From Pseudodesulfovibrio sp. 5S69 (lineage in GTDB: Bacteria > Desulfobacterota > Desulfovibrionia > Desulfovibrionales > Desulfovibrionaceae): a DNA stretch of 64,000 nucleotides. The stretch lies in assembly GCF_037094465.1 (NCBI RefSeq), contig NZ_CP146609.1, positions 3,839,501 through 3,903,500 of the forward strand. The letters run 5' to 3'. Every line of letters starts with the position of its first letter. Within the stretch, counting starts at the first letter, position 1. Shown piece by piece: positions 15,498 through 30,865 of this stretch. The position numbers were made by a program, and so were the translations under genes. The notes under the pieces were generated by a model. That model was not told the origin of the DNA. It ran no database searches and saw only the letters and a program-made list of their open reading frames with translations.

Positions 15498-15575
15498 GTC
15501 CCCATCGTCTAGCCTGGTCCAGGACGGCGGCCTTTCACGCCGTTAACAGGGGTTCAAATCCCCTTGGGGACGCCA
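15498..15575 (+). tRNA. tRNA-Glu(TTC), island 1 target
   Basis: 78 bases with encoded CCA. Acceptor gtcccca pairs with tggggac, anticodon TTC lies in loop ctTTCac, T-loop ttcaaat. Its 3' 48 bases belong to a 54-bp direct repeat found again at 32420, so the 3' end now in use was supplied by the integrated element. Confidence 0.96.
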
Positions 15576-15581
15576 AGGAAA
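15528..15581. other. attL-like direct repeat in tRNA-Glu
   Basis: 54 bases from the anticodon stem to just past CCA (cggcctttcac ... ccaaggaaa), identical to 32420-32473. It marks the left boundary of island 1. Confidence 0.93.
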
Positions 15582-15584
15582 TAC

Positions 15585-15613
15585 AAGGCCTTACGCACAC
15601 CGCGTAAGGCCTT
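15585..15613 (+). terminator. Terminator after tRNA-Glu carried by the element
   Basis: 12-bp stem aaggccttacgc/gcgtaaggcctt with a 5-base loop, then tt-cc-ttt. The original terminator of the tRNA lies beyond the right repeat (32476-32507) and has almost the same stem. Confidence 0.85.
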
Positions 15614-15627
15614 TTCCTTTCCACGTG

Positions 15628-16710
15628 TCACCCGCAAGTGTCATTTTTCCGGACTCGGCCTCCGACCGCATCGACCAATGCTGCATCCAGGGCATCCACG
15701 GCACCGGTGGTCTTCTTCGTCCGGAGGATGTAGCGCTGGGTCGTGGCGATGGACTTGTGCCGAAGCAGATGCTTCACTTCCATGATGGTCGCACCGTTGT
15801 CGATAGCCACTCGGGCCGCCAGGTGACGGATGCCATGAAAGCCGAACGGCTTCACCCCGGCTTCGGCGCACAACCGCTTCAGCCACCGATTGTTCGGGTC
15901 CAGAAGACCGTTGAACCGATTGCCGAAGACCAGATCCTCGGCGCCGGACACCAGCTTCCATTCGGCCAGCTTGGCTCGAAGCCCTGCGGACATGGGGAGC
16001 TCATCGAATTCCGCGTTTCCGCTTCGCCGCTTCCTTGTCCAGTAGCCGACAAGCCCTGATCCGAAGTCGACCTCGCTCCACTTGAGTTTCCAAAGCTCGC
16101 TCCTGCGCGGCGCGGTATGGAAGGCCAGCAACAGCAGTTGCCTACGACGAGGTCCCGCCAGGTGCACCACCTTGCGGAAATCGTCCAGCGGCGGGACGTA
16201 GCGCGGGTGGCGATCCTCGGGGAACCTGTCCACATGCTGGAAGGGATTGTCCCTGTCCAGATTGAGGTACTTGATTCCCCACACCCAGGCAGCGGCGAGA
16301 TTCTTGCGATCCTTGTTCGCCGAATTCCCGGTTACCGTCCTGGAGACCATGGCCAGATGCTCCAGAGCCACGTGAAGACTGATTCGCCCAACCAGCGACC
16401 GGTCGTCCCTGAGGAAAGCCCCCAGCCGCTGGAAAGCCAACCGTTTTTCGTTGTAGGTCTTCCGGCACATCGTGGCCTCGACGTGATCGAGGTAACGATT
16501 CGCCCATTCCGTCACGGTCAGAGCCCGGCCAATCACATCGGCCTTGGCAGGGTTTCTCTGGTCGGCCACCTTCAATGCCTTGACGGTTTCGCCTTCCCAA
16601 TCCCCTGCCTGTCTCTTGGTTTCAAAGAACTTCGTGCGCCTGATGATCGGACCATGTGTCGGGGTGAAACGCACCACACCCCTCCACCGTTTTCCTTCCT
16701 TGTAGGGCAT
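15628..16710 (-). CDS. Tyrosine integrase of island 1
   Basis: 360 residues. N-terminal AP2-like arm-binding domain (YKEGKRWRGVVRFTP), core-binding helices at about 70-175, catalytic domain 185-345. Catalytic residues visible: Arg in HTAPRRSELWKLKWSEVDF, Lys-bearing turn TRKRRSGNAEF, HxxR in GFHGIRHLAARVA, His in LLRHKS, and nucleophile Tyr in IATTQRYIL. It sits 52 bases from tRNA-Glu and its 3' end overlaps a gtgtca repeat mirrored at 32312, so it most likely recombines the att repeats. Confidence 0.92.
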   Translation of the reverse strand: MPYKEGKRWRGVVRFTPTHGPIIRRTKFFETKRQAGDWEGETVKALKVADQRNPAKADVIGRALTVTEWANRYLDHVEATMCRKTYNEKRLAFQRLGAFLRDDRSLVGRISLHVALEHLAMVSRTVTGNSANKDRKNLAAAWVWGIKYLNLDRDNPFQHVDRFPEDRHPRYVPPLDDFRKVVHLAGPRRRQLLLLAFHTAPRRSELWKLKWSEVDFGSGLVGYWTRKRRSGNAEFDELPMSAGLRAKLAEWKLVSGAEDLVFGNRFNGLLDPNNRWLKRLCAEAGVKPFGFHGIRHLAARVAIDNGATIMEVKHLLRHKSIATTQRYILRTKKTTGAVDALDAALVDAVGGRVRKNDTCG

Positions 16711-16749
16711 ATTTTCTCCTGCAGGAAAGGTCGCTTACCATCATTGAAG

Positions 16750-16995
16750 TTACCAAATGCCATGACGATCCGTCAAATCGGACCGGCTTCCGCCTTCGTC
16801 CGAGATTGGCGCCTTTTCTGCATGGCCGAGCTGTCCCCTGGCGATGTACGCCTTGAGCAGCTCATGGTGAAATCGGATGCCCCGTTTACCGATCCGAAAA
16901 GCCCCCAGCGCGGCAAGCATGGCCGGAGTCCTGACCAGGCTTTCCGAACAATTCAGAATTCGGGCGACATCCTTGACCTTCAATGCGTTCGACAT
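16750..16995 (-). CDS. Excisionase-like helix-turn-helix protein
   Basis: 81 residues: VKDVARILNCSESLVRT is a MerR/Xis-type helix-turn-helix, followed by FRIGKRGIRFHHELLKAYIAR, the wing found in AlpA/Xis and helix_turn_helix_17 proteins. It is upstream of the integrase on the same strand (39-base gap), the usual place for a recombination directionality factor. Confidence 0.7.
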   Translation of the reverse strand: MSNALKVKDVARILNCSESLVRTPAMLAALGAFRIGKRGIRFHHELLKAYIARGQLGHAEKAPISDEGGSRSDLTDRHGIW

Positions 16996-17141
16996 GCGAC
17001 CTAAACCAAAGGGTTAAACACCTGTCCCGCTGCGGGACTCCCAGCCAACCCTTAAGTCTGATCACACCGGCACCTTTGACCTCAAGGAATCGAGATAGGG
17101 TATTTTCACTTTTTTCGATGAGTCGCTCATGAGGGGCGAAA

Positions 17142-17184
17142 GTCCTCCCCGCCCATCGGCCACAAGCCGACGGGCGGGGAGGAC
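17142..17184. repeat. Perfect 13-bp GC-rich inverted repeat
   Basis: gtcctccccgccc (17142-17154) pairs with gggcggggaggac (17172-17184). The interior tcggc/gccga extends the stem after one mismatch. It is the first of three hairpins in the 282-base spacer between two integrase genes. Confidence 0.85.
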
Positions 17185-17187
17185 GGT

Positions 17188-17231
17188 GTTACCTGAAGAT
17201 GAATCGCTCAGGCGATTCATCTTCAGGTAAC
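17188..17231. repeat. Perfect 20-bp inverted repeat
   Basis: Arms of 20 bases (gttacctgaagatgaatcgc and its exact complement) around a 4-base loop tcag. There is no T tract, so it is not an ordinary terminator. It lies 3 bases from the GC-rich hairpin at 17142. Confidence 0.9.
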
Positions 17232-17240
17232 CTCACGCCC

Positions 17241-17275
17241 AAAAAGGGAAGCCCCACCGAAAAGGGCGGGGCTTC
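17241..17275 (-). terminator. Terminator of the second integrase gene
   Basis: Read on minus, the stem gaagcccc/ggggcttc is followed by ccttttt. It lies immediately after the stop at 17278. Confidence 0.8.
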
Positions 17276-17277
17276 TT

Positions 17278-18234
17278 CTAACGGGAACTGCCAAGGTAGG
17301 CATCGGATACGTCACGGCGGCCAGGGGAATGGCCTGCAGTGACTTCGATGTCGTCACGGGCTTCGGCGTCGAGCCGGGGCCATTCGTCCCCAGCCGTGTC
17401 CCGCGCGGTCTTTTGGAAGGCTTCCACGGATTCGTGCTGGTTGGGCGGCTGGAAACCCGTGTGCTCGACGTACATGCGATGAAACCGCTCATGACGGTTG
17501 CTGTGCAGCGTCCACCCGCTTTCCTTCTTGGTGAAGCCGCAAAGCCTAGCCGCGTAGGACAGCTTTTCCTGCCATTTGTCGCCCATCCCGCTCGGCATGA
17601 GATTATGAATCCCCGGCCTGTCGGATTGACTGACGTATGGCAGAGCTCTCTCAAGAGCATCCTGCTGCCGATCGGAGAGATTGTGCAGCGTCCTAGGGCG
17701 CCCACCCTTCGAGCCATACTGGATGTGAAGAGTGCGGGCTTCCTTGTCCCAATCGTTGATCAGATCGACTTTCGCCGATTCTTCTCGTCGGAGCCCCAGT
17801 TCGTACTGAAGTCGGATCTGAGCGGCACACCGGGGACCGTGCTCATATGAGGATTCAGCTTCCAGTTTGGCGATTGCCCCCAAGACAAATTCAGGGGCAA
17901 CCGCCTTGCTGTTGGCGTTGGCAATGGTCCCGCGTTTCACGCCGAACACGTCGTTGGTCGGGCTGATGCGGGTGTTGCCGTAAGTTTCGCACAGGTGACG
18001 GGCTGCCGAAAAAATTTCAGCTATGCGCCCGTCACCCACGCCCTGTTCTTTCATCTTGGCGGCCACGGCCGCAAAATGCTTGTTGGAAATGTTGGTCCAT
18101 TTGCGGACTCCAAACCCGGCTTCACGCAACCGGCCTGCGAAGGCTTTGGCATTCTGCCGGATTCTGTGCTGTTTCGAGCGCGGGCCGGACAGGGTTGCCC
18201 TGTTCGCGCCCAGTACCAGACTGATGGATTTCAT
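17278..18234 (-). CDS. Second integrase-like protein (tyrosine recombinase fold)
   Basis: 318 residues. Resembles the integrase_1-type proteins of conjugative elements: N-terminal basic region (SKQHRIRQNAKAFAGRL), central RLQYELGLRREESAKVDL carrying the first catalytic Arg, then LHSNRHERFHRMYVEHTGF (H/R box) and AGHSPGRRDVSDAYLG with a late Tyr. The ATG at 18234 has a GGAAGGAG Shine-Dalgarno. It is spaced from the first integrase by three hairpins. Which recombination it performs is unknown. Confidence 0.75.
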   Translation of the reverse strand: MKSISLVLGANRATLSGPRSKQHRIRQNAKAFAGRLREAGFGVRKWTNISNKHFAAVAAKMKEQGVGDGRIAEIFSAARHLCETYGNTRISPTNDVFGVKRGTIANANSKAVAPEFVLGAIAKLEAESSYEHGPRCAAQIRLQYELGLRREESAKVDLINDWDKEARTLHIQYGSKGGRPRTLHNLSDRQQDALERALPYVSQSDRPGIHNLMPSGMGDKWQEKLSYAARLCGFTKKESGWTLHSNRHERFHRMYVEHTGFQPPNQHESVEAFQKTARDTAGDEWPRLDAEARDDIEVTAGHSPGRRDVSDAYLGSSR

Positions 18235-18783
18235 ATGGATCTCCTTCCTGAAGTTCGGGGCAGCGCCCCGGGACAAAGCAGATCGGACCTTCCCCGCTTG
18301 CCGGGAAATGACCTGCCTATGGCGCGAATGCGCCACACAACAACCGACACGGAACAAATCAATGTCCATTTCCCACAGAAGGAAAAATCCTGAGAATCCA
18401 TTCAATAAGGGGTGCCACCACGCAAGCTCATTTGTCCTGCGCATAAGCGATGGCCGTGGGGGGAATTACGACAACGGCAGATTTCTAGATACCTGTCGTT
18501 TGTCCGGCGGGGTGCTGTGTTTCAGCCTGGCGTTAGGATGTGAAAGTGTGCCGTTTGGAAATGAACGGCAGCGAAGTGTTAGATGTTACGGCGTGTTAGT
18601 GCCTACTTAAGCGTTCATCAGTTTAGACTTCGTCAAAACTTATGAACGCGCCTTAGGTGCGTCATACCTCCTTTTGGTGACCAATTTATCCGGTGGATAT
18701 GCCCTACCATATGACGCCACGAAACCTTCGCGCAAGCTCCGGCGGCACGATTTCTTTCCCTCCCGCCGATTTTCCACGAGCGT

Positions 18784-18868
18784 GACGCAAGCAGCCGCCG
18801 GAGCAAGGCCAGGCCCTTCGGGCACCCGGCGAGCCGGGCGGCCTTGCCCCGACGGCTTTGCTTGCGTC
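18784..18868. repeat. Multi-branched inverted-repeat structure (possible ncRNA)
   Basis: Outer stem gacgcaagc/gcttgcgtc (18784-18792 with 18860-18868), extended by agccg/cggct after a two-base bulge. The next stem is gcaaggcc/ggcctgc-type (18803-18810 with 18840-18847). Inside are two small hairpins (gccc-ttc-gggc and cccggc-gag-ccggg). This forms a junction of stacked helices of about 85 bases. No family recognised. Confidence 0.6.
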
Positions 18869-18999
18869 GTGATTACCGCAGGCGACGGCGAGAGGGATGG
18901 CGGGTTCGACTCCGGCTCAAGGGATATCCTCAGGTCCCTGCTCACGCATCCACCCCAAAAAAGCAACAAATCCCTTGCTGCTGATTATCAACTTATTTA

Positions 19000-19037
19000 T
19001 TAACAGTGTTAAACAACTAGTTGCTTAACACTGTTAA
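19000..19037. promoter_or_regulatory. 38-base palindromic operator before XRE gene
   Basis: Perfect 13-bp arms ttaacagtgttaa and ttaacactgttaa around acaactagttgc, whose own centre aactagtt is palindromic. It ends 18 bases before the XRE start, a natural autoregulatory site. Confidence 0.75.
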
Positions 19038-19055
19038 CAAGGTGGTTGATTAACC

Positions 19056-19544
19056 ATGGCCGAAGATGACGACGTTGACCTCACCCCTGTGAAGACCCCG
19101 GAACAATTGTTGAAAGAAGAAGTCGGGCTTTATCTGAAGATTGTCCGGGAGAATCGGCACAAGCCCCTCAGATGGGTCGCCCAGAAATTGGGGTGCTCCA
19201 GCTCGTTCATATCCCAGATCGAAAAGGGGGACGCTTCGATTCCACTGGATCGGGTACTCGACTTCTCCCTTGCCTATGACCTTCCTGTTCCGGAGTTCGT
19301 TCGAATCGTTCTCGTCACCATGCACAACGACACGTATAGAGCGCTGATGAGCATACTGGAGAATGACCCGGAAATGGCTAATGCCGCCAACAGTTGCCAC
19401 ACGATTGCAAATCCCAAAGAACGAGCCAAGCGGCGCAAAGCTCTCAACCCTGGGCTGAGTTCAAAATCGCTTCAACGAATGCGGGAATTCATCTTGGAAA
19501 ACCAAAAGCCGACGTATGGAAAGCCGGTGGCAGGTGATTCGTGA
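19056..19544 (+). CDS. XRE-family regulator
   Basis: 162 residues. Helix-turn-helix at about 28-85 (LYLKIVRENRHKPLRWVAQ, LGCSSSFISQIEKGDASIP, LDRVLDFSLAYDLPVPEF). The C-terminal half is charged with no known domain. Its stop overlaps the methyltransferase start (GTGA), so the two are coupled like a control protein and modification enzyme. The palindrome upstream is the likely operator. Confidence 0.82.
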   Translation: MAEDDDVDLTPVKTPEQLLKEEVGLYLKIVRENRHKPLRWVAQKLGCSSSFISQIEKGDASIPLDRVLDFSLAYDLPVPEFVRIVLVTMHNDTYRALMSILENDPEMANAANSCHTIANPKERAKRRKALNPGLSSKSLQRMREFILENQKPTYGKPVAGDS

Positions 19545-20269
19545 TTGATTTACGGAAACAAGACCATCTGGGGGTAACCTCGTCGTCCGAAGACGGCGAC
19601 ATCCACAACGATGATGCGTTCCTTTTTTTGGAGAATTGTCCTTCCCACCGGTACGAGGCCATAATCACCGACCCGCCTTTCGAGATCGGTATCGCCGGCA
19701 AGGATTGGGATTGCAAAAAGCTTCGGATCGACGTTCTAGCCTACCAATTCCATCGCGTTCTGAAACCTGGCGGCAATGTCTTTGTGTTCTGCTCGGATTT
19801 CCAATTCGGCGATTGGTATCGAGAGCTTTCCCGCTATTTTACCAAGTTGCGCAAATATGCCTGGTGCAAACCGGATTCACGAGGCACCAACAAGGGGATG
19901 TTTCAGGAGAGCTTCGAACTCGGGCTGCATGTGTGCTCAGAAAATTCATATTTCGACAAGGAAGGCCGCTATAAAAATTATGTGGTCGCTGGAAAAACAT
20001 CAGGGAATGAACGGATGATGCCTGACCCCGATGAGGAATGGTCAACCAAGAAGGGCGAAAAGACCCTTCACCCAACGCAAAAAAAATTGTCGGTAATTGA
20101 GACTCTGGTTACCGCATTGAGCAAAGAAGACGACACCATTCTTGATCCCTTTGCCGGCACCGGGACGCTTGGGGTCGCAGCCAAAAATTTGGGCAGAAAA
20201 TTCGAGATGGTCGAGTACGGCTTCCGAAACCACATTGCGGCATGGGACAGGATTCTAGGGGAAGAGTGA
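19541..20269 (+). CDS. DNA methyltransferase (N4/N6, beta class)
   Basis: 242 residues. The catalytic motif DPPFEIG (near residue 45) precedes the SAM-binding motif DPFAGTGTLGVAA (near 206), and LHPTQKKLSVIE lies between, the motif order of beta-class amino-methyltransferases. GTG start at 19541 within the XRE stop. No restriction endonuclease gene follows, so it is an orphan methylase, possibly protecting the element from host restriction or regulating it. Confidence 0.88.
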   Translation: MIDLRKQDHLGVTSSSEDGDIHNDDAFLFLENCPSHRYEAIITDPPFEIGIAGKDWDCKKLRIDVLAYQFHRVLKPGGNVFVFCSDFQFGDWYRELSRYFTKLRKYAWCKPDSRGTNKGMFQESFELGLHVCSENSYFDKEGRYKNYVVAGKTSGNERMMPDPDEEWSTKKGEKTLHPTQKKLSVIETLVTALSKEDDTILDPFAGTGTLGVAAKNLGRKFEMVEYGFRNHIAAWDRILGEE

Positions 20270-20425
20270 GTCCCTTTTGTCTTTACCCGCAAATGCCAAT
20301 TCAACGTGCGGCGCAACGTCTCTTAAGAGTCCAGTTTATTTTAAGCAGACTTCAAGGGGTGGCTCCCAGAAAAGCCCTTGTAGTCTTGTATAATACAAAT
20401 CGAGGAAACCATCGGCAGGAGGTCA

Positions 20426-21487
20426 TCAGTCAACGTGAAGCACCACGGCGGAACAATTAAACAATGCCCATGCACAGTCTCCAACATTTAATTCAAAGGG
20501 TGAGCTTGGGGAGGAAGTGACAAGGGCGCATATTTCAGTTGTTTCAGAAATCTTGACGATATATTCCGTGTTGACCTCTCCATTGGTTATTCTGGTCACC
20601 ACTCCCCTGAGTCTGTTTTCCGTGCTGCATTTCGGAGATGCTTCACCGCCATGCAAGATTACCAGCGGAGCCTTTACCTCGGCTGTGATCAATCTGCCTA
20701 AGCTCAAGCCAAGCCGCTCCAAACTGTCATTCGTGATTACGGTGATGATGGAGTTCCCTTCTAGGGTTTCCATAACGACGCGTGTTTGTATGTCGCCCCT
20801 CAAGATTTCTGACACTTTTCCAAAAAAACTATTTCGTGCGCTTGTTTTGCGGCCGGATTCCTTTTCCAGAAAACGCTGAGCAACAGCTTGAATTTCATCC
20901 TTGGAGAACGCGACATAGGACGAGGTGAGATTGGGGGTGGAGTGCCCCAGCATCATCTGCACAGCGGGCAAGGGGATGTTGCTTTGCATCAACTCCACGC
21001 CTCTCGCCTTGCGGATGGCTTCCGGACCGCCCAGCCGCTTTGGAAACCCACATTCCAAAGCCCGTTCATAAAATTTGCGCCGAACAAAACCAGGGTCCAA
21101 ATCAAGCAGTCTTTCTGACTCCTTGTGAGATTTCAAGGTTTCGATCTTCCCCCTGATCTCGTCGGCAAGAGATCGTGAAATATGAACTTCCCTCGGTTCC
21201 GCTCTCTCATTCCCATTCGAACGAAAAATCACCAGATGGCGAGCCCAATCGAGATCGGTATGTATGTTGATCGATAATACTTCGCTCAACTTTGCGCCCG
21301 TATACCTGACCAGAAGGAAAATGAGCAAAACGCTTAGTCTGGACAAACGAACATCGTCGCGTTTTGATTTTCCAGCCCACTCCCGGAAAGAATCCTCCAA
21401 TCGATTCAGTTGGGAGTGGCTCAGGCACTCCTCTCCTTCCGCAATGGAAAGAATCCGTCCATCATCACTTCGGTTGAAACCTGTCAT
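20426..21487 (-). CDS. TunR-like tungstate/molybdate-responsive regulator
   Basis: 353 residues in an unusual fusion. Residues about 20-215 are a tyrosine-recombinase-like DNA-binding domain (VLLIFLLVRYTGAKLSEVLSI; MMLGHSTPNLTSSYVAF). Residues about 222-285 and 288-353 are two TOBE/Mop-type oxyanion-binding repeats (NSFFGKVSEILRGD; NRLRGVVTRITNGEVN). The HxxR box of active recombinases is missing (GPEAIRKARGVELM), so it should bind rather than cut DNA. This is the architecture of TunR, the tungstate-responsive regulator described in sulfate reducers. It is divergent from a TauE/SafE permease, a gene type I recall being in the TunR regulon. Confidence 0.82.
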   Translation of the reverse strand: MTGFNRSDDGRILSIAEGEECLSHSQLNRLEDSFREWAGKSKRDDVRLSRLSVLLIFLLVRYTGAKLSEVLSINIHTDLDWARHLVIFRSNGNERAEPREVHISRSLADEIRGKIETLKSHKESERLLDLDPGFVRRKFYERALECGFPKRLGGPEAIRKARGVELMQSNIPLPAVQMMLGHSTPNLTSSYVAFSKDEIQAVAQRFLEKESGRKTSARNSFFGKVSEILRGDIQTRVVMETLEGNSIITVITNDSLERLGLSLGRLITAEVKAPLVILHGGEASPKCSTENRLRGVVTRITNGEVNTEYIVKISETTEICALVTSSPSSPFELNVGDCAWALFNCSAVVLHVD

Positions 21488-21612
21488 TACTAAGAGCCTT
21501 TGATTGCTGAGAGTTGCTGCTTGCCCCTGAAAATACCATGGCAGCTTGAAGAAAGCCCGACGATAATCATTCGACCTCGCTCACATTGGTATTGACTTGC
21601 CGAAACTTTACT

Positions 21613-21638
21613 GTCACGAATATAGACACTTCCGTGAC
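21613..21638. promoter_or_regulatory. Candidate operator between TunR-like gene and tauE
   Basis: gtcacg and cgtgac form a 6-bp inverted repeat with 14-base spacing, extended by ctg on one side and ctg on the other. It lies 38 bases before the permease start. Confidence 0.4.
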
Positions 21639-21675
21639 TGTTGACAAATGTTATCACAAAAAGGCGGTCGATTCC

Positions 21676-22617
21676 ATGTACTTCCAAACTGCTGATATCG
21701 AAGTCGCGCTCTGGATTCCACCTTTTGTGGCGTTCGTCATTTCTTTTTTCACCTCAATGGGCGGCGTTTCCGGTGCCTTTCTGCTCTTGCCGTTTCAGAT
21801 GTCCTTCATCGGGTATACGAATCCATCCGTCAGCGCCACCAACCAGGTGTTCAATGTCGTTGCCATCCCAAGCGGAGTATATCGTTACTGGCGCGAGGGG
21901 CGAATGGTGTGGCCGCTGACATGGATCGTCGTCCTCGGCACGCTGCCAGGTGTCTTTATCGGCGCCATGGTCAGGGTGCATTATTTGCCGGACCCGAAGC
22001 ATTTCAAGCTGTTTACCGCCTGTGTGCTCCTATATATCGGGTTTAAAATGGTGAGGGACGTGCTGGGGAACTCAAATGGCGGGGCCAAGAGGGAAAGCGA
22101 AGCACGCTTTCGGGAAATGGTCAAACGAAACACTAGTCCGAAGGGGGCGGCGCCCGCGCCCGCCACGACAGTCACTTGTTTCAATCTAAAGCGACTCGGG
22201 TTCACGTTCTACGGGGAAGCCTATGACGTTTCATTCTGGGGAATTTTTCTTCTCAGTTTCATTGTCGGCATAGTGGGGGGGATTTACGGGATAGGAGGGG
22301 GATCAATAATCGCCCCGTTCTTTATTACTTTTTTCGAGCTTCCAGTCTATATCGTCGCAGGTGCCGCACTGATGGGAACCTTTGTCACATCGGTTGCAGG
22401 CGTCGCTTTTTACCAAGCCATCGCACCTTTCTACCCAAACCTTTCCGTGGCTCCCGACTGGCTGTTGGGAATACTGTTCGGAGCGGGAGGAATGGCGGGG
22501 ATGTATCTTGGGGCTCGATGCCAAAAGTTTGTGCCAGCCAAGGCCATCAAGTGGATGCTGTCTGGCGTCATGGTGTTTACTGCGATCAAATACATTCTAA
22601 ACTTTTTTGGATATTGA
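21676..22617 (+). CDS. TauE/SafE-family permease 1
   Basis: 313 residues, about 8 membrane segments in two TauE halves: FFTSMGGVSGAFLLLPFQM near residue 22 and VGGIYGIGGGSIIAPFFIT near 200. A soluble loop of about 55 residues (about 135-190) separates them. The family exports or imports small anions (sulfite, sulfoacetate, possibly oxyanions). Being divergent from a TunR-like gene suggests a tungstate/molybdate or sulfur oxyanion role. The ATG at 21676 begins just before the first membrane segment; a start at 21586 would add a leader lacking a ribosome site. Confidence 0.85.
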   Translation: MYFQTADIEVALWIPPFVAFVISFFTSMGGVSGAFLLLPFQMSFIGYTNPSVSATNQVFNVVAIPSGVYRYWREGRMVWPLTWIVVLGTLPGVFIGAMVRVHYLPDPKHFKLFTACVLLYIGFKMVRDVLGNSNGGAKRESEARFREMVKRNTSPKGAAPAPATTVTCFNLKRLGFTFYGEAYDVSFWGIFLLSFIVGIVGGIYGIGGGSIIAPFFITFFELPVYIVAGAALMGTFVTSVAGVAFYQAIAPFYPNLSVAPDWLLGILFGAGGMAGMYLGARCQKFVPAKAIKWMLSGVMVFTAIKYILNFFGY

Positions 22618-22660
22618 CCAATATAAACCGGCAATCCGTTTCTCCCCGGGAGGCGATGCT

Positions 22661-22876
22661 ATGTGTACAAAGAGAAACGCTGACGACATTCTCAAGCAAA
22701 TTGGCGAAAGCCACGATCCCGATCACATTCGGCGGCTTCTTGAAGAAATTAATGCATGCAACAAATGCCCGGAGAACCATCTGTGCCAGGATGGTCAAAA
22801 GTCGGATTGCCGTTGTCATCTAAGTTTTCAGATTGAGCTTAAGAATTACATCTATGCGATGACAAACAAAAAGTAG
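22661..22876 (+). CDS. Cysteine-rich small protein
   Basis: 71 residues with a GGGAGG Shine-Dalgarno before the ATG. The C-terminal half holds CNKCPENHLCQDG and CRC, six cysteines in all, a likely metal or Fe-S site. The N-terminal half is an acidic amphipathic helix (ILKQIGESHDPDHIRRLLEE). It is 43 bases after the tauE stop, probably same operon. No family recognised. Confidence 0.65.
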   Translation: MCTKRNADDILKQIGESHDPDHIRRLLEEINACNKCPENHLCQDGQKSDCRCHLSFQIELKNYIYAMTNKK

Positions 22877-22993
22877 TATAACCTGTTGCGGTAGAACACG
22901 ATGCAATTAAGTGCCCACCACATTTAAAATGTGAGGGAACTGAATTTTCTGAAACATGGCGACGCCTTTTTCAAGGCTCCTTCTATATTTCAT

Positions 22994-23305
22994 CTAGTAG
23001 TTGAGAATCCTGTCTGCCTTTATCATTTCCGCATACAGGAATTTCAGGCTGGACAACTTGACGTATTCGCTTTCATCCACACCGTGGATGCTCAGGCACT
23101 TCCCTCAGGCTACCAGCACGCCCTCACTCAGGGCGAACATCTTCGCCTGTTCGGCGATCGGGAATGTATCCGAATCGCCCGCATACAAATCAACGGCGCT
23201 GGCGTTCAGGAACAACGTGACGTCCTCGCCCTCATTCAACAGGAAGTTGCCGAAACGGACAGTGTTCCATTTCACTTCCGGGTCGTTGCTGGAAAGAATG
23301 ATCAA
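22994..23305 (-). CDS. DsrE-family selenoprotein with in-frame TGA (Sec)
   Basis: Minus-strand gene normally cut short by TGA at 23107-23105. Read through, it gives 103 residues that fit a DsrE-like sulfurtransferase. N-terminal strand LIILSSNDPEVKWNTVRFGN, then EGEDVTLFLNASAVDL and EQAKMFALSEGVLVA. Then comes Sec67 (TGA)-Gly-Lys-Cys70, followed by LSIHGVDESEYVKLSSLKF and a C-terminus KADRILNY before TAG. In DsrE relatives the TGA position is a Cys of a C-x-x-C site. A SECIS-like hairpin follows the TGA, and selC is at 48140. TTG at 23305 is the canonical start, but AGAAGGAG sits ideally before an ATA codon at 23314-23312, giving (M)QVLIILSS. Likely handles persulfide sulfur; it shares a promoter region with the divergent ArsR gene. 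Confidence 0.8.
23070..23107 (-). promoter_or_regulatory. bSECIS-like hairpin after the TGA
   Basis: On the minus strand, TGA is followed by 21 bases to the loop of a perfect 7-bp hairpin catccac-GGT-gtggatg (plus 23074-23090). Bacterial SECIS elements have a small apical loop with a guanine near its start about 16-37 bases after UGA; this fits. Confidence 0.72.
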
Positions 23306-23465
23306 GACTTGTATAGAGACTCCTTCTATTTGACATTGCCTAAGTATAGATTATTTCCATTCCAAGTTGAACAAAAACCTCGGCGAGACCATTGTTGGGA
23401 ATGGTGGACTTTACACCATTTTTAAATAAGTATATGCATAGATTCTTTATCACATCGAGGAACCA

Positions 23466-23753
23466 ATGGTCAATTTTGAAAAACAAGCCAGTATGTTCAA
23501 AGTCCTCTCGGTCGGCACTCGCATACGGATACTGGAGCTGCTGAAAGGCGGCCCTTTGTGCGTAAACGCCTTGGCGAAGAGGCTGGGCGTCACTCCTTCA
23601 GCCGTATCCCAGAACCTGCGCATCCTGAGGGATGCGGACCTCGTTGTTGCGGACAAGCAGGGCTATTTCGTGCATTACGGGATTAACCGGCAGACCATGA
23701 CGGAATTGCGGTCCCTCGCGAACGGGGTGTTCAGCATGCCAAATTTGTTGTGA
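23466..23753 (+). CDS. ArsR-family regulator
   Basis: 95 residues, a complete winged helix (LSVGTRIRILELLKGGPLCV, LAKRLGVTPSAVSQNLRIL, wing GYFVHYGI). One cysteine (in PLCVNALA) and no classical metal-binding pair, so an effector cannot be named. It is divergent from the DsrE-like gene; the AT-rich spacer with near-palindromes aagtatatgcatagattc and aagtatagattattt could be its operators. The TauE gene follows after 213 bases. Confidence 0.85.
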   Translation: MVNFEKQASMFKVLSVGTRIRILELLKGGPLCVNALAKRLGVTPSAVSQNLRILRDADLVVADKQGYFVHYGINRQTMTELRSLANGVFSMPNLL

Positions 23754-23966
23754 AATGGTATGAATAGACAGCCTGTGGAGAAACCCGCAACTCGTGCCGA
23801 AAGATTGCCTGGGAAGCAATTCGTTCGGGACCCGCAGATATTCCGAAGCCGGCGCGACTCGACTTTTCCCGATCAACAGATTGAAGCGATACACCAGCCA
23901 GGGTGGGCGCTCGGAGTCCCCGGCCAGCTGCGAACAATCGCCTGAACACATCGTCAAGGACCGCAT

Positions 23967-24728
23967 ATGAGCCTACCCGTTGTCTTGCTTGCAGGCGTAT
24001 TTTTCATCTCACTCCTGCTGACCATGGTCGGTCTCGGCGGCGGGCTTGTCTTCTCGCCGCTGTTCGTGCTTCTGGGCATGGCGAAGGGCGAGGCGGCCGC
24101 CGCATCCCTGTTCCTGAACCTCACGGCTGCGGGATCGGCGGCGTACGCCTATTCGCGAAAGGGGATGGTCGATTTCTCCCTTTCGATCCCGCTGATCCTG
24201 TTTTCCGCAGCGGCCGCGCCGATCGGCGCTTACCTGAACACCCGGATCGAAACGAAACCGTTCCTGATGATCATGGCCGTCATTCTCTTTCTGGCGGCGG
24301 TGCGCATGCTGTTTTCGCCCAAGGGCGACGACCGGACGGTGGAGCGGGCAAGAACAACCAAAATTATCGGCGGGGCGATTATCGGCGCGGTCATCGGCCT
24401 GATGGCCGGGTTGCTGGGAATCGGAGGCGGGGTCTTCATCGTCCCCTTGCTTATCTTCTTCTTGAAAATTCCGACCAAGACGGCTGCCGCTTCATCCACC
24501 TTCATCGTCTGCTTTTCCTCACTCACCGGCTTCCTGGGATACGCATCCATGGGGGAGGTCGATTGGTATTTCCTGTTACCTGCGGCGGTGGTCGCCTTTC
24601 TCGGCGGTCAGGCCGGAGCGAGGCTGATGAGTACCAGGCTGACGGGCCGGACGGTCAGGCTCCTGTTCAGCCTGCTCCTGTTCGGATTGTGCGCCAAGCT
24701 GTTACATCAGGGTTTTTATGGGGTTTGA
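23967..24728 (+). CDS. TauE/SafE-family permease 2
   Basis: 253 residues, the common size of the family, about 8 membrane segments. The two symmetry motifs are LLTMVGLGGGLVFSPLFVLLG near residue 15 and LMAGLLGIGGGVFIVPLLIFF near 145. Together with ArsR and a DsrE-like protein it resembles sulfur/sulfite efflux clusters. The 213 bases upstream (23754-23966) hold no supported gene. The stop overlaps an upstream alternative start of the ABC ATPase. Confidence 0.87.
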   Translation: MSLPVVLLAGVFFISLLLTMVGLGGGLVFSPLFVLLGMAKGEAAAASLFLNLTAAGSAAYAYSRKGMVDFSLSIPLILFSAAAAPIGAYLNTRIETKPFLMIMAVILFLAAVRMLFSPKGDDRTVERARTTKIIGGAIIGAVIGLMAGLLGIGGGVFIVPLLIFFLKIPTKTAAASSTFIVCFSSLTGFLGYASMGEVDWYFLLPAAVVAFLGGQAGARLMSTRLTGRTVRLLFSLLLFGLCAKLLHQGFYGV

Positions 24729-24780
24729 TGAATACGCCGAAACAGATCAAAACAAGAATCGGTTCGGGAGGTCCATCCTG

Positions 24781-25761
24781 ATGATGAACGAAGCAATAGC
24801 GGTCGAAGGCCTGAGCAAGCGGTTTGAAGGAGTGCAGGCCGTGGACGGCGTGTCATTCGCCGTGGAGCGGGGAGAGCTGTTCGGATTTCTCGGGCCGAAC
24901 GGGGCTGGAAAGACCACGACCATCAACATGCTCACCGGGTTGGCCCGCCCGGATTCCGGGAACATTCGACTCTGCGGCGTCGATTGCACCCAAAACCCGA
25001 GGGTCGCCCAGCACCTGATCGGCGTTGTCCCCGACGAGAGCAACCTCTACCCCGAGCTGACCGGGTTCGAGAACCTGTGTTTCTGCGCATCGCTGTATGG
25101 CATCCGGAAGGACGAGCGCCGGGAGCAGGCAAAGGCGCTGTTGCGCGATTTCGATCTCGTCAAGGCTGCCGACCGAAAGTTCGGCGGGTACTCCAAGGGG
25201 ATGAAGCGGAAGCTCACCATCGCGGCGGGCATCATCCACCGGCCGGACATCCTGTTTCTCGACGAACCCACCACGGGCATCGACGTGGCCAGCGGACGCC
25301 AGATACGCCAGCTCGTGGCCGACCTGCATCAGGCCGGGACGACCATCTTCCTGACCACCCACTACATCGAGGAGGCCGAACGGCTCTGCGACCGCATCGC
25401 CTTCATCGTTGCCGGGCGCATCGTCGGCGTTGACTCGGTGGAACACCTGATCCAGCCCCTGCAAGGACGGCATGTCCTCGAAATCACCTGCCAGGAGGCC
25501 TTGACGGAAAAGGTTCGTGAAGGGTTGAGCCAGGCCTTCCCCTCGCTGGTTATCTCGCCCCCCGAGCAACAGTCGATCCGTGTGGAATCGGACTCCCCCG
25601 TGCATGTGGGGCCGTTGGTGCGCCGAATCGAGGAACAGGGATTCACGGTCACGGAAGCGCGTCGGATACGCCTCTCGCTTGAGGATGTTTTCGTGCAGAT
25701 AACGGGCATAGAATCCGGTGCCATGCATCACGAGAAGGAGATGAAGGGGGGAAAGAAATGA
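24781..25761 (+). CDS. ABC-2 exporter ATPase
   Basis: 326 residues. Walker A GPNGAGKTT near residue 40, Q-loop replaced by VVPDESNLYPELT, signature YSKGMKRKL, Walker B ILFLDEPTTGID, H-loop TTHYIEEAERL. A 90-residue C-terminal extension follows, as in daunorubicin-resistance-type ATPases. The ATG at 24781 follows GGGAGG; a start at 24718 is possible. It overlaps the permease gene by ATGA. Confidence 0.9.
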   Translation: MMNEAIAVEGLSKRFEGVQAVDGVSFAVERGELFGFLGPNGAGKTTTINMLTGLARPDSGNIRLCGVDCTQNPRVAQHLIGVVPDESNLYPELTGFENLCFCASLYGIRKDERREQAKALLRDFDLVKAADRKFGGYSKGMKRKLTIAAGIIHRPDILFLDEPTTGIDVASGRQIRQLVADLHQAGTTIFLTTHYIEEAERLCDRIAFIVAGRIVGVDSVEHLIQPLQGRHVLEITCQEALTEKVREGLSQAFPSLVISPPEQQSIRVESDSPVHVGPLVRRIEEQGFTVTEARRIRLSLEDVFVQITGIESGAMHHEKEMKGGKK

Positions 25762-26495
25762 ACAAGCTGATCGCCTTCTGGAATATCTTGGCAAAAGACA
25801 TGCGCACCTACTATCTGAAACCGCCGAACGTGAGCTGGGGCATCATCTTCCCCCTGGCGTGGACAGCCATGTTCTTCATCCGCTCCGGGAGCGGGCTGGA
25901 AAGCATTCCGCAGCTACTCCCCGGCGTGGTGGCCATCTCCATCCTGTTCGGCACCACCTCCATGCTCGCGGTCACGGTGACCTTCGAGAAGAAAAACCGC
26001 TCCTTCGAACGGCTGTTGCTGGCACCCATGTCATTTGAGCTCCTGATGCTTGCCAAGACGAGCGGGGCGATCTTTTTCGGCGTGTGCAACGCCTTTGTAC
26101 CCGTGATCATGGCCCTGTTCCTGACCGACCTCGCCCAGATCGCCTGGGCGCAGTTCATCCCCGCAGTGATCCTCATCGCGGTGGCCTCCACGTTCCAGGG
26201 ACTGTTCATCGCGGTGGCCGTCAGCGAGGTGTTCGAGGCGCAGACCTTTTCCAACTTCTTCCGTTTTCCCATGATCTTCCTGTGCGGGCTCTTCTTCCCC
26301 ATCGAGAGGCTGCCCGCCCTGCTCCAGCCCGTGTCCTACGTACTGCCCCTGACTTACGGGGCCGACGTCCTGCATGGTGCTGTCCATGGCGGCCACATTC
26401 TGCCATGGTATCTGGACTTGCCTGTACTCGGCCTGTTCTGTGCGGCGCTGTTCTGGGCGAGCCTTCGAAACATCCGGAGGCGGTGGATTGCCTGA
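25758..26495 (+). CDS. ABC-2 type exporter permease
   Basis: 245 residues with six predicted membrane segments and the ABC-2 signature region (RFPMIFLCGLFFPIERLPALLQPVSYVLPLTYG). Works with the ATPase just upstream (4-base overlap). Substrate unknown. The sigma-factor gene starts inside its last codons. Confidence 0.88.
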   Translation: MNKLIAFWNILAKDMRTYYLKPPNVSWGIIFPLAWTAMFFIRSGSGLESIPQLLPGVVAISILFGTTSMLAVTVTFEKKNRSFERLLLAPMSFELLMLAKTSGAIFFGVCNAFVPVIMALFLTDLAQIAWAQFIPAVILIAVASTFQGLFIAVAVSEVFEAQTFSNFFRFPMIFLCGLFFPIERLPALLQPVSYVLPLTYGADVLHGAVHGGHILPWYLDLPVLGLFCAALFWASLRNIRRRWIA

Positions 26496-27036
26496 TAGGT
26501 CCCGATCGCAACTCCCGGACGAAGTCCTGTTGGAGGCCTCGGGCAACGGGGACCGGCAGGCCTTCGGGGAACTCGTCCGACGCCACCAGTCCTGGGCCTG
26601 GGGCGTTGCCTGCCGTTTTCTCGGCTCCGGGAACGATGCCGAAGACATCGTCCAGGCCGCCTTCATCAGGCTGCTCGGCGCGTCTGGCCGCTATCGCCGT
26701 ACCGCGCGTTTCAAGACCTTCTTCCACGTCATCATCTCCCGGCTCTGCCTGGATCATGCCAAAAGAAAAAAAACGGAACAGGCGGACGACTATCCGGAAT
26801 TGGCCGATTCGTCTCCCGGGCAGGAGGAGGCGTTGATAATGAACCAGAACGCGGCCCGCGTGCGCCGGGCATTGGACGCTCTCCCTCCCAGGCCTCGCAT
26901 GGCCGTCGTGCTTCGGTACTATGAAGGGCTCGGTTATGATGAAATGGCCGTTGTTCTTGAAACGTCACGGAAGGGCGTCGAGCGGCTGCTGTCCAGGGGA
27001 CGCGAGGCCTTGCGGGATAAACTGGGATCACGATGA
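26488..27036 (+). CDS. ECF-type sigma factor
   Basis: 182 residues. Region 2 at about 20-90 (NGDRQAFGELVRRHQSWAW, GNDAEDIVQAAFIRLLG, FKTFFHVIISRLCLDHAKRK) and region 4 at 125-180 (LPPRPRMAVVLRYYEGLGY, ETSRKGVERLLSRGREAL). I chose the TTG at 26488 because GGAGG precedes it by 7 bases and the permease stop overlaps it. The next gene encodes a zinc-finger anti-sigma protein. Confidence 0.88.
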   Translation: MPDRSRSQLPDEVLLEASGNGDRQAFGELVRRHQSWAWGVACRFLGSGNDAEDIVQAAFIRLLGASGRYRRTARFKTFFHVIISRLCLDHAKRKKTEQADDYPELADSSPGQEEALIMNQNAARVRRALDALPPRPRMAVVLRYYEGLGYDEMAVVLETSRKGVERLLSRGREALRDKLGSR

Positions 27037-27103
27037 ACTTTTTTCGGTCTAAGCCGGGGGTTTTCCGGACTTGGATCGTTTAATGGAAATGAGGTCGACA
27101 CAC

Positions 27104-27577
27104 ATGCATTGCCGAAATTGCCATACACGTCTTTCCGCCTACCTGGACGGGGAACTGCCCGAACGGGAGATGCGGGATATGGAACGTCATCTGGACGGGT
27201 GTGCGTCATGCCGGGAGCGTCTTGCCGGGTTGGAGGCATTGGATGCGCCTCTTGCTTCCCTGAGCATTCCGGAGATGCCGGGCGATCTGGGATACCGGAT
27301 CATGGCCCGGGCTTCGCGGGAGTATTTCGACACCCCGAAAAAGGGAGGCTTCCGGGTGATCGCCCGCAGGTGGCTGGGGTCGACGGCCACGGCGTCAGCC
27401 TTGGCGGCAGGCCTGCTTCTGGGCGGCCTGCTCGGGTGGAACAGCCACGGCAATCCGGTTTCGGAACGGACTATGATGCAGACGGAGAAAACGGTCTTCG
27501 CGTCCCTGAGCGCCGCTCCCGGCGGGTCGATCGAAGCCGCAGTGCTGGCCGGATTCAGCGACGGGGGGAGGTTGTAA
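27104..27577 (+). CDS. Zinc-finger anti-sigma factor
   Basis: 157 residues. N-terminal zf-HC2 (HCRNCHTRLSAYLDGELPE and MERHLDGCASCRERL with the H-x3-C-x2-C pattern), one membrane segment at about 95-115 (ATASALAAGLLLGGLLGW), then a short periplasmic tail. The GAGGT before 27104 decides this start. It should hold the upstream sigma factor until a periplasmic signal arrives. Confidence 0.85.
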   Translation: MHCRNCHTRLSAYLDGELPEREMRDMERHLDGCASCRERLAGLEALDAPLASLSIPEMPGDLGYRIMARASREYFDTPKKGGFRVIARRWLGSTATASALAAGLLLGGLLGWNSHGNPVSERTMMQTEKTVFASLSAAPGGSIEAAVLAGFSDGGRL

Positions 27578-27580
27578 ACC

Positions 27581-28078
27581 ATGCATTATTTGAAGCGGTC
27601 TTTGCTGGCCCTGTCGGTAGGATTGAACGTCGCTTTCATCCTGTTCTGGGGGATGCAGCATTTTTCCGGGCAGAATCAGACACCGCTGGAAAAGTCCCGC
27701 CCTTCTGGTGACCAGTTTTTTGCAGCGAGGTATGAAGGCGTGCAGGTGACTCCCGAACAATGGAAGGCACTGGAGCCCTATGCCTTGGCCTTCAAGACCA
27801 ACACCGACCGCATCCGCCGGGAAACGATGCAGTTGCGAAAGCAGTTGCTTGAGTTGCTGGACAAACCCGTTGCCGATGAAGAGGTGATCCGAGTCATTCA
27901 GCAAAAGATTCTTGCGAACCAGGGCGACATGAAAGACGAGGTTCTTCGTCTCCTGCTCCATGAGAAAAGCGTGTTGCGGCCGGATCAGTTTTCCGGGTTG
28001 ATCCAGGCGATTCGGGATTACGGAGGCCGCAGGCCCGGATTTGGGATAATGACCGGAGGAAAACCGGAACGGGATTAA
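27581..28078 (+). CDS. CnrX/ZraP/Spy-like periplasmic sensor
   Basis: 165 residues: N-terminal membrane anchor (SLLALSVGLNVAFILFWG), then all-helical periplasmic domain with TPEQWKALEPYALAF and paired helices (RIRRETMQLRKQLLELLDKP; EEVIRVIQQKILANQGDMK), like heavy-metal-resistance proteins. It lies 3 bases after the anti-sigma gene, completing a sigma/anti-sigma/sensor set comparable to CnrHYX. Confidence 0.78.
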   Translation: MHYLKRSLLALSVGLNVAFILFWGMQHFSGQNQTPLEKSRPSGDQFFAARYEGVQVTPEQWKALEPYALAFKTNTDRIRRETMQLRKQLLELLDKPVADEEVIRVIQQKILANQGDMKDEVLRLLLHEKSVLRPDQFSGLIQAIRDYGGRRPGFGIMTGGKPERD

Positions 28079-28125
28079 CGGCATGGCCGGGGAATGCCCT
28101 TGGGCCATGCATACAGGAGAAAACC

Positions 28126-28835
28126 ATGTCGCTGATCGAACTGAACGGCATTTCGAAAAAATACCTGACGGGGGAGGTCGAAACCGAAGCCCTGAAACAG
28201 GTCACCGTCTCTATCGAGAAAGGGAAACTCGTCACGTTCGTCGGGCCTTCGGGCAGCGGCAAGACCACGCTGCTGAACATCATCGGCTGCATGGACAAGC
28301 CGTCGTCCGGGGAGGTCCGGGTGACCGGCGCCAGGGTGGACACACTGGGCAAGAAGGAGGCGGCGAATTTTCGCGGCAAGCATCTCGGCTTCATCTTCCA
28401 GTCGTTCAATCTCATCCCGGTCCTGAGCGTGTATGAGAACATAGAGTACCCTCTGCTCATGATCACCAGGACTTCGGCGAGCGAACGGCGGGAACGCGTG
28501 ATGGCCGTTCTGGAGGCCGTCGGCATGACGGACCAGAAGGACAAGCGGCCGGACCAGATTTCGGGCGGACAGAAACAGCGCGTGGCCGTGGCCCGGGCGC
28601 TGGTGACCAACCCGGAGGTGGTGCTGGCGGATGAGCCCACCGCCAACCTCGACCATGATACGGCCCACAAGATCATCGATCTGATGAAAAAGATGCGGGA
28701 CACCTACGGGACCACCTTCGTCTTCTCCACCACGACCCGCGCATCGTCGAACACGCCGATGTGGTGCACGGCATTGAGGACGGCAGGCTGCTTGCCGGAA
28801 ATCCGCTTATCCAGGGAGGCAACGACCATGCTTAA
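28126..28835 (+). CDS. LolD/MacB-like ABC ATPase with -1 frameshift near its end
   Basis: Walker A GPSGSGKTT near residue 41, Q-loop FIFQSFNLIP, signature ISGGQKQRVAVARAL, Walker B VVLADEPTANLDHD. As sequenced, the frame breaks at about 28729-28731 (tccaccacg). Restoring one C gives FSTHDPRIVEHADVVHGIED, the H-loop and normal C-terminus, ending at TAA 28833-28835, which overlaps the permease ATG at 28828. Without that base the frame runs straight into the permease, giving a false 651-residue fusion. About 235 residues when corrected. Confidence 0.85.
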
Positions 28836-30081
28836 CATATTCAAGATCGCCCTGCGCAATCTGGCGCGCTACAAACGGCGTACCGCCCTCACTTCCCTGC
28901 TCATCGTCATCGGCGTGTGCATGGTGGTCATGTTCTCGGGCCTCGCCGGATCGTTCAAGTCCATGATGATCGGCATCATCACGGATTCGGTTATCGGGCA
29001 CATGCAAATCCATCGCAAAGGCTATTTTTCATCCATCGACACCATGCCCCTCAACCTGAACATGAAGGGGCAGGCGTACAAGAAAATCGCGGAAACCCTC
29101 GACGCCACCCCCGGCGTGGAGGCGTATGCGCCCAGGCTGAAGCTCGGCGCGGTCCTCAGCAACTATATGGAAAGCACCAACGTCAGGCTTTCGGCCATCG
29201 ACCCGAAACGGGAAATGGCCGTCTGCACGGCATTGGCCGGCAGGATGAAGCAGGGAGCCCCCGGCTCCGGCGAAGACCTGCTCGAAAAGGGTCAGGTCGT
29301 CATTCCCGAAAAGGTGGCCAAGAGCCTGGGGATGAAGCCCGGCGACTCCGTGGTGCTGGTCGCCACCAACAAGGACGGCTCGGTAAACGGCATGGAATTT
29401 CAGCTTGCCGGAATCATCGAAGACCTCATGGGACCGGGCGGAAAAGACGCCTACATGCACATCGAGGACGCCCGCAGCCTCCTGCGCACCGAACCGGGCG
29501 AGGTCACCGAGATCGTGGTCAGGGTTTCCAGCTTCAACAAGCTGAAGTCCATCGCCGGGTCGCTCACGGCAACGCTTGGCGGATTCACGAACAAGAAGGG
29601 GCAGCCCGCCTTCGAGCTGCACACCTGGGACAAGCTGTCGCCGTTCTCCAATATCGCGAACATGATCGACCTGATGCTGGTCACGGTGAAGATCGTCATG
29701 GTCGCCATCGTCCTCATCAGCGTGCTCAACGTGATGCTGATGTCGGTCTTCGAGCGTGTGCGGGAAATCGGGACCATCGCCGCCATGGGAACCTCCCCCG
29801 GAACGATCATGTCGCTTTTCGTGGCCGAGGGCGTGCTCCTGGGCGTGCTGGGGACGGCGCTCGGCCTGATCCTGGGCGTGGGCGGTCTGCTGGCCTTCAA
29901 GGCGGCTGGAGTGGCCTTCTCCTTCGGGCGGATGGATAACCTAATCGTGCGTCCGGACATCAACCCCGGCGAAATGCTCTTCCTGTCGGCCATCGTCCTG
30001 GTGGCCTCCGCCCTGGCGGCGCTGCAACCCGCGTGGAAGGCAAGCCGGATGGAACCCGTCGATGCGCTCGGCCACGTATAA
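28828..30081 (+). CDS. FtsX/LolE-like ABC permease
   Basis: 417 residues. N-terminal membrane segment (TALTSLLIVIGVCMVVMFSG), long periplasmic MacB-type domain (about 45-275), then three membrane segments of the FtsX domain, with VFERVREIGTIAAMGTSPG between segments 2 and 3 as is typical. It should work with the upstream ATPase to extract lipids or lipoproteins, or export a substrate. Confidence 0.87.
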   Translation: MLNIFKIALRNLARYKRRTALTSLLIVIGVCMVVMFSGLAGSFKSMMIGIITDSVIGHMQIHRKGYFSSIDTMPLNLNMKGQAYKKIAETLDATPGVEAYAPRLKLGAVLSNYMESTNVRLSAIDPKREMAVCTALAGRMKQGAPGSGEDLLEKGQVVIPEKVAKSLGMKPGDSVVLVATNKDGSVNGMEFQLAGIIEDLMGPGGKDAYMHIEDARSLLRTEPGEVTEIVVRVSSFNKLKSIAGSLTATLGGFTNKKGQPAFELHTWDKLSPFSNIANMIDLMLVTVKIVMVAIVLISVLNVMLMSVFERVREIGTIAAMGTSPGTIMSLFVAEGVLLGVLGTALGLILGVGGLLAFKAAGVAFSFGRMDNLIVRPDINPGEMLFLSAIVLVASALAALQPAWKASRMEPVDALGHV

Positions 30082-30100
30082 CCGCATGAGGATACCGCAC

Positions 30101-30851
30101 ATGTACTCTTTGAAATATGTCCTGTTCGTTGCTGCCGTCTGCCTTGTTTTTTGGCGGCGGCAATCAGGCTTCCGCCATGGATGCAGGGGAAGTGCTCCTG
30201 GCCGTGGACCGCAACCTGGCCCCGGTCAGCTACGAATCCTACCGCAAGCTCATCAACATCGAGCCGGACGGGAGCAAAAGGGAATATGTCCTCTACACCA
30301 TCAAGAAAGGCCAGGACATGGTGGCCTCCGTCTTCCTGGAGCCTTCCAGCGACAAGGGGCGCGGGACCTTGCGCCTAGGCGACAACATGTGGCTCCACAT
30401 TCCGAGCGTGGCCAAACCGGTCAGGATAACCAGCCTCCAATCGGTGACGGGTGGCATCTTCAACAATGCCGATATCATGCGCCTAGACTATAGTGCCGAA
30501 TATACGCCCGAATCCTTGGAGGAAAGCGGTGACGCCTATTTGCTTCGCCTGAAGGCGAAGACCAACGAGGTTGCCTATGACAGGCTGGAGATGCTGGTGG
30601 CCAAGGACCGGTTGGTTCCGACGGAGATCAAGTGTCTCGCGGCGTCCGGGATGCTGATCAAAACCCTGCATTTCAAGAAGATGACCGACTTCGGCGACGG
30701 ATTCGTCCGCCCGGCCATTGTCGAGACGGACAGCCCGCTCCACAAGGGGTACCTCTCGGTGATGATCTTCGCCCGGATGAAGGCCAGGGACTTCTCGGAT
30801 GAAGTCTTCACCCTCAACTACCTGCCGCGGATAGAAACCCTTCGTCAGTGA
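30101..30851 (+). CDS. Outer-membrane lipoprotein-sorting-like protein, +1 frameshift in signal peptide
   Basis: Mature part (from ADAG-like MDAGEVLLAVDRNLAP) is a LolA/LolB-fold-like protein of the lipoprotein-sorting DUF4292/DUF1329-related type (LRLGDNMWLHIPSVAKPVRI). The ATG at 30101 encodes a normal signal peptide MYSLKYVLFVAAVCLVF, but a run of six T (30147-30152) shifts the frame. With five T it continues GGGNQASA into the mature protein. In the sequence as given, translation could only begin at 30117, with an atypical leader. About 250 residues when corrected. Confidence 0.78.
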
Positions 30852-30865
30852 TGGCGGGAAGCAGA

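Follow-up and report, generated by a model that had tools for sequence, protein, structure and literature searches.

Introduction

DsrE-like selenoproteins with a UxxC motif have been in print since 2005, and in Desulfovibrio vulgaris since 2006. They were described in the Sargasso Sea survey (PMC1088965) and in the GOS survey (PMC2398784), Desulfovibrio vulgaris was listed with one DsrE-like selenoprotein (PMC1794560), and reviews cover them as well (PMC9312934 and, from 2026, PMC13188914). The mention of such reports in the initial annotation of the locus studied here is borne out by the published surveys, and the family itself is already known; its vehicle, a genomic island, is less expected. 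Passages on the published DsrE-like selenoproteins make no mention of islands, the 2026 review (PMC13188914) contains none of the words mobile, plasmid, virus, phage, transposon or island, and among the titles and abstract openings listed, a coverage outside which most of the subscription literature lies, none concerns island carriage of a selenoprotein gene.

The published DsrE-like selenoproteins have the same PF02635 domain and UxxC site as the gene presented here, while the relatives collected in this study add UxxS, UxxL and UxxR forms, a comparison that does not imply orthology. Among solved chains, E. coli YchN (PDB 1jx7) was the only one with an E-value under 0.01 (4.4e-5), its CKTC being aligned under UGKC; it is a distant relative that has Cys instead of selenocysteine (Sec). 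DsrE of DsrEFH and TusD of TusBCD, both heterohexamer subunits that are likened here without direct alignment, also carry the Pfam DsrE domain. DsrE of DsrEFH holds sulfur on a single residue, DsrE-Cys78, and in A. vinosum hands it to DsrC (PMC3397948), and M. cuprina DsrE3A carries thiosulfate (PMC4175335). YedF (TIGR03527) combines a DsrE-like domain (with CGxC) and a link to selenium (PMC5322559) with an extra SirA-like N-terminal half that the protein here is without. With regard to the vehicle, other islands targeted to tRNA genes by tyrosine-type integrases are alike in having an integrase, repeats in direct orientation that hold the 3′ part of the tRNA, a second copy and patchy presence. 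In contrast, the cargo here includes a UGA-recoded gene requiring host Sec machinery, the full product of which can be made only where the recipient supplies that machinery.

Results

The DsrE-family gene and its in-frame TGA

The window, i.e., the whole stretch of DNA that was analysed (64,000 nucleotides of Pseudodesulfovibrio sp. 5S69), had been annotated as holding a minus-strand frame of 66 codons, a TGA, 36 further codons and a TAG (22996-22994), and all of these were recovered at their positions.

22994-23305, minus strand: predicted DsrE-family selenoprotein gene, 103 residues from TTG, with Sec67 and a TAG stop
23105-23107, minus strand: in-frame TGA read as selenocysteine, the U of U-G-K-C

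As proposed for the full-length protein, the read-through product matches PF02635 DsrE (8.9e-6; 26.3 bits with C for U, vs. a gathering cut-off of 22.7), while the 66-aa fragment alone yields zero Pfam matches at E up to 1. Since the DsrE match is thus gained by reading through the TGA, it was counted for the selenoprotein reading. Pfam DsrE was the sole domain, NCBIfam giving no match for the 103-aa read-through protein. Against this stands a PF02635 profile scan of the same genome, which listed five other DsrE frames, all of them stop-free and four over the cut-off, and the selenoprotein gene was not among the frames listed. The computed masses (Cys for Sec) are about 11.4 kDa for the read-through protein and about 7.2 kDa for the 66-residue product. 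The sequence around the Sec reads ...VLVA-U-GKCLSIHG..., confirming the proposed UxxC motif (U-G-K-C) with TGA at a Cys position, where natural Cys relatives align. Those relatives of the gene that carry a name come from records of Desulfovibrionaceae and Solidesulfovibrio. There is strong sequence evidence that the gene encodes a complete DsrE-family selenoprotein and not a truncated fragment. While the gene, its SECIS, its conservation and its island are supported by the sequence, we infer that Sec would be inserted in the cell.

The genome also provides the corresponding decoding machinery.

48140-48233, plus strand: tRNA-Sec, outside the island

This tRNA lies where the initial annotation had placed it (near 48140), and the proposed search for selA, selB and selD returned all three, each over its curated cut-off (608.9, 390.1 and 329.7 bits, respectively). 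These sel genes are not adjacent to the selenoprotein gene and are located elsewhere in the genome. The selD gene (L012) has one in-frame TGA itself, as in known Sec-type SelD.

Start codon and upstream signals

23312-23314, minus strand: ATA where DsrE selenoprotein relatives have an ATG start (ATG 62, ATA 3, GTG 2 of 67 loci)
23320-23327, minus strand: ribosome-binding-site-like AGAAGGAG, read from the sequence; near relatives keep the same

The 5′ end had been set at 23314; the codon there is ATA, and it is ATG in 62 of the 67 loci whose match begins at residue 1 (the other two ATA cases being the congeners G299 and G301). A TTG at 23305 sits 14 nt past AGAAGGAG, and initiation must occur at either the ATA or this TTG. 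Given the change from the family's ATG, weak expression would be expected, and translation of the gene may be weak owing to the ATA. Scans for sigma-70 promoters and terminators over 22850-23560 found none.

A covarying hairpin downstream of the TGA

23074-23090, minus strand: predicted bacterial SECIS hairpin, 7 bp, GGT loop, covarying

The perfect GGT-loop hairpin that had been noticed downstream of the TGA was retrieved as CATCCAC-GGT-GTGGATG at 23090-23074, with a spacing of exactly 14 nt. Folding of the 45-nt stretch gave -12.3 kcal/mol (z -2.09), and 8 of 200 shuffles folded equally well. Across 61 distinct sequences (from 64 listed; L134 and L135 were excluded as UGVC type, and L058 because it duplicates the window), the helix of this GGN-loop hairpin was 98.1% paired, vs. 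25.5-53.4% in slid registers. Compensatory cells, in which both sides had changed, numbered 26 vs. 5.8 in shuffles, and the covariation score of the helix was reached by none of 500 shuffles. A tree-aware covariation test yielded 3 and 4 well-supported independent pairs with none opposed, which is too few for significance.

The most variable helix pair was A-U in 32, C-G in 16, G-C in 5, G-U in 1 and unpaired in 7 of the 61 sequences. Because this pair covaries, so do the residues it encodes, and the SECIS visibly couples amino-acid identity at two protein positions: in 69 distinct proteins (L136, without the HG, being excluded), the couples were Ile-Asp (36), Leu-Glu (15) and Val-Asp (5), with Ile-Glu (4), Val-Glu (2) and seven single couples off that trend. 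All seven pairs are kept in L105, L108, L112 and L128 via Ala-Gly, Thr-Gly, Ile-Asn and Leu-Lys couples, and L164 and L165 form 6 of 7. Both helix and GG loop are gone from the nearest Cys relative (L111, 54%), and in the distant UGVC-type TGA genes L134, L135, L153 and L170 the helix is not formed in this register. Another Cys-type relative (L151, CGKC) retains part of the hairpin, its loop being GGC, which may be the remnant of a SECIS since lost. The hairpin was unmatched in Rfam at E up to 1.

Conservation and selection past the TGA

Relatives were found at E up to 0.001 in 79 of the 348 genomes of the order. Neighbourhoods of 80 matches plus the window made up a set of 81 loci, some of them identical copies; rows of fragments and the greater part of the weakest matches (e.g., G217, G199, G197 and G218) were excluded. 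The Sec site carries an in-frame TGA in 75 of these loci and Cys in four, i.e., L111 (CGKC) and L131, L132 and L133 (CGTC), and is unreadable in two (L121 and L127), where the genes have one TGA and one TAA in frame and are possibly decaying copies. The four Cys loci, together with 13 Cys-type frames from the phylum (one of them broken), are the Cys homologues aligned at residue 67 that the initial annotation had suggested searching for. Homologues ending at this site, or a genome lacking selA and selB, had been named as speaking against a selenoprotein; instead, the TGA is kept as counted above, and both genes are present.

Among 70 distinct Sec proteins, the motif is UGKC in 58, UQKS in 5, UGKL in 3, UGVC in 2 and UGKR and UGKS in 1 each, so that the partner Cys is replaced by Ser, Leu or Arg in 10 proteins that retain the Sec. 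Invariant positions in 49 chosen proteins (with Sec written as C) are the Sec column, E10, N14, R17, F32 and G62. In the wider phylum, a match at E up to 1e-5 was obtained in 88 of 395 genomes, and 20 fetched regions contained the above-mentioned 13 Cys-type frames and 11 Sec-type frames, the latter including UKKA, ULTC and UGAC. Tandem pairs occur in these regions: a Cys-type copy adjoins a Sec-type one (UGVC, UKKA) among L153, L155 and L166 (the Cys copy of L166 being broken), and L167 has two Sec-type copies (ULTC, UGAC). Such tandem genes perhaps encode paired subunits.

Past the TGA, substitutions relative to the window fell 449, 414 and 761 times on codon positions 1, 2 and 3, respectively (60 full-length Sec rows, identical rows included, SECIS codons excluded). 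The median Ka/Ks was 0.25 before the TGA and 0.43 after it, over 814 usable pairs (i.e., with dS of 0.05-1.5 in both parts). These values support purifying selection on the region past the TGA.

A genomic island at tRNA-Glu

15528-32419, no strand assigned: genomic island, 16.9 kb, with a second copy at C1:871438-888354
15498-15575, plus strand: tRNA-Glu (ttc), the integration site
15528-15581, plus strand: left att repeat, 54 bp, which begins within tRNA-Glu and holds its 3′ part (exact comparison)
32420-32473, plus strand: right att repeat, 54 bp, identical to 15528-15581
17278-18444, minus strand: island integrase (Pfam Integrase_1)

The placement of the gene inside a genomic island agrees with the 54-bp direct att repeats, the integrase and the second genomic copy. 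The latter is inverted and 99.92% identical to window 15527-32440, the differences between the copies amounting to 2 mismatches and 11 gap letters, all of them outside the selenoprotein gene. The majority of the differences are single-base gaps, some of them within ORFs, which could equally reflect sequencing error or recent decay. The surroundings of the second copy yielded no tRNA, and its outer right flank has only the anticodon-region core in common; this combination, seen with the second copy and with L147, suggests that island integration is relaxed.

Four congeners carry the island, either entire or partially. G301 has 17.0 kb of it at 99.8% identity, at a tRNA-Glu, and G299 has 12.0 kb at 99.9%, ending ca. 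0.3 kb from the contig end. In G313 and G284 the match starts at window 17231 and extends to the right over 15.3 kb (89%), and in G284 it ends in sequence other than the tRNA part. G278, of another genus, shares the surroundings of the gene over 390 nt (94.6%), close to the end of a contig, as well as pieces of the integrase region. In a protein tree (56 proteins, kept out of 71 after 15 rows that were near-duplicates or distant had been dropped, with L058 standing for the window; starred branches require at least two changes), the island genes cluster with G278 (100/98), apart from six other genes of their genus. This grouping supports transfer, at the little resolution that 106 columns give.

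As judged by Pfam, the island cargo includes the integrase, an HTH protein, an N6/N4 methylase, an integrase-TOBE fusion, two TauE permeases, an ArsR regulator, an ABC-2 transporter, an ECF sigma factor, a zinc-finger protein and a MacB/FtsX-type ABC protein, next to a Metal_resist-like protein slightly below the cut-off. DsrF and DsrH partners were absent from the Pfam-matched island neighbours. At window 20426-21487, a tyrosine-recombinase domain is fused to TOBE/Mop domains, and the product of this gene may be not an integrase but a regulator that responds to molybdate. Immediately beyond the island, window 33195-36365 holds a 1056-aa frame without in-frame TGA, which we take by its look to be a formate dehydrogenase-type molybdoenzyme.

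Searches of viral_contigs (close relatives only) and of a phage collection returned no relative of the selenoprotein gene. In the plasmid search, the protein retrieved just four haloarchaeal DsrE proteins (33-36% identity), and the island DNA just 44-51 base pieces of an ABC gene in 7 records. In G273, which represents a different genus of this family, the selenoprotein gene occurs twice (C2:2179070-2187009 and 3528346-3536329; L077 and L137) within an 8.0-kb repeat of 99.3% identity, the copies of which lie in opposite orientation, each with a tRNA-Pro and with a Phage_integrase gene alongside.

The ArsR/TauE neighbourhood

21586-22617, plus strand: TauE/SafE permease (Pfam)
22607-22876, plus strand: small ORF containing several Cys residues, oriented towards the selenoprotein gene (convergent) and unmatched in Pfam and NCBIfam
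23466-23753, plus strand: ArsR/SmtB-family regulator (Pfam), divergent from the selenoprotein gene
23967-24728, plus strand: second TauE/SafE permease (Pfam)

These neighbours are as described before, i.e., ArsR, two TauE permeases and a Cys-rich small ORF. The sulfur-handling setting that had been read from them stands as far as their presence is concerned, but is particular to the island lineage: a close ArsR, both TauE genes and the Cys-rich ORF occur together in 5 of the 81 loci, all of that lineage. In 21 of the 81, less than 4 kb was available on one side, and there the absence of the setting carries no weight. Elsewhere, a relative of TauE occurs at L089, and ArsR-like ORFs (36%) occur at three loci. 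With such confinement, the setting does not indicate the function of the family, and an ArsR-TauE-DsrE cluster was rejected as a trait of the DsrE selenoproteins. The ArsR protein contains a single Cys; it was also considered as a sulfane-sulfur sensor (BigR, TsoR), a candidate rejected on scores under the curated cut-offs, and among the matches listed it passed the cut-off solely for the general metalloregulator family.

Discussion

The reading towards which we lean, with some confidence, is that of a DsrE-like selenoprotein that travels as cargo of a tRNA-Glu island, has its TGA read by SelB, and serves as a single-Sec chalcogen carrier linked to ArsR and TauE. Because of the hairpin 14 nt downstream, SelB with Sec-tRNA would decode the TGA, yielding a DsrE-family protein of 103 to 106 residues that probably adopts the DsrE fold in a small cytoplasmic oligomer. 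Sec67, which in the alignment falls on the first Cys of CKTC in YchN, stands at an active-site Cys position, and could take up sulfane sulfur or selenium as a selenopersulfide and pass it on to an acceptor. In the island lineage, Cys70 might resolve this Sec67 selenopersulfide; as this residue is Ser, Leu or Arg in some relatives, the Sec alone would be the essential group. On the island, the protein probably works together with ArsR-controlled TauE exporters against excess reactive sulfur, which is the weakest step of the model. A broader formulation, in which the mobile tRNA-Glu island cargo among Desulfovibrionaceae is combined with a family-wide single-Sec chalcogen carriage for which the CxxC partner is optional, is put forward tentatively, and we regard it as possible but rather doubtful.

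A thiol/disulfide-type reductase, in which a Sec67-Cys70 selenenylsulfide cycles with a thiol donor, is suggested by the UGKC motif of 58 of the 70 distinct Sec proteins and by the surveys, which class DsrE-like selenoproteins under a UxxC redox motif. We nevertheless hold it to be unlikely, given the Ser, Leu or Arg at the second position in 10 of the 70, the occurrence of UKKA forms and the precedent of A. vinosum DsrE, which carries sulfur on one Cys (PMC3397948). Retention of the Sec alongside a replaceable second Cys favours the single-Sec chalcogen carrier over the UxxC reductase, and a carrier of sulfur or selenium is the most likely function. We see still less reason to place the protein outside sulfur metabolism, as a YedF-like carrier or sensor in selenium supply. 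Selenoprotein expression does depend on selenium, which counts for such a role. So does YedF, of which the DsrE-like domain with CGxC has been tied to SelD and Sec lyase (PMC5322559); yet the SirA-like half typical of YedF is absent from these 103 residues, in which DsrE alone was matched, and the sel genes are elsewhere in this genome.

That the TGA is a true stop, leaving a truncated 66-residue DsrE remnant, is hardly credible: it is a stop in the standard code and the start has changed to ATA, but conservation, covariation and selection extend past it, the Sec machinery is present, and the island copies are identical within the gene. Chance read-through or a pseudogene is likewise rejected on conservation, downstream selection and helix covariation. 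When the code is read in the standard way, genes of this type are cut short at their TGA.

If the broader formulation is true, the island gene would benefit only those hosts that possess Sec machinery, and the Sec chemistry of its family would be distinct from that of redox UxxC proteins. For DsrE selenoproteins, the loss of the partner Cys in relatives that keep the Sec would offer a direct test of sulfur carriage vs. disulfide reduction.
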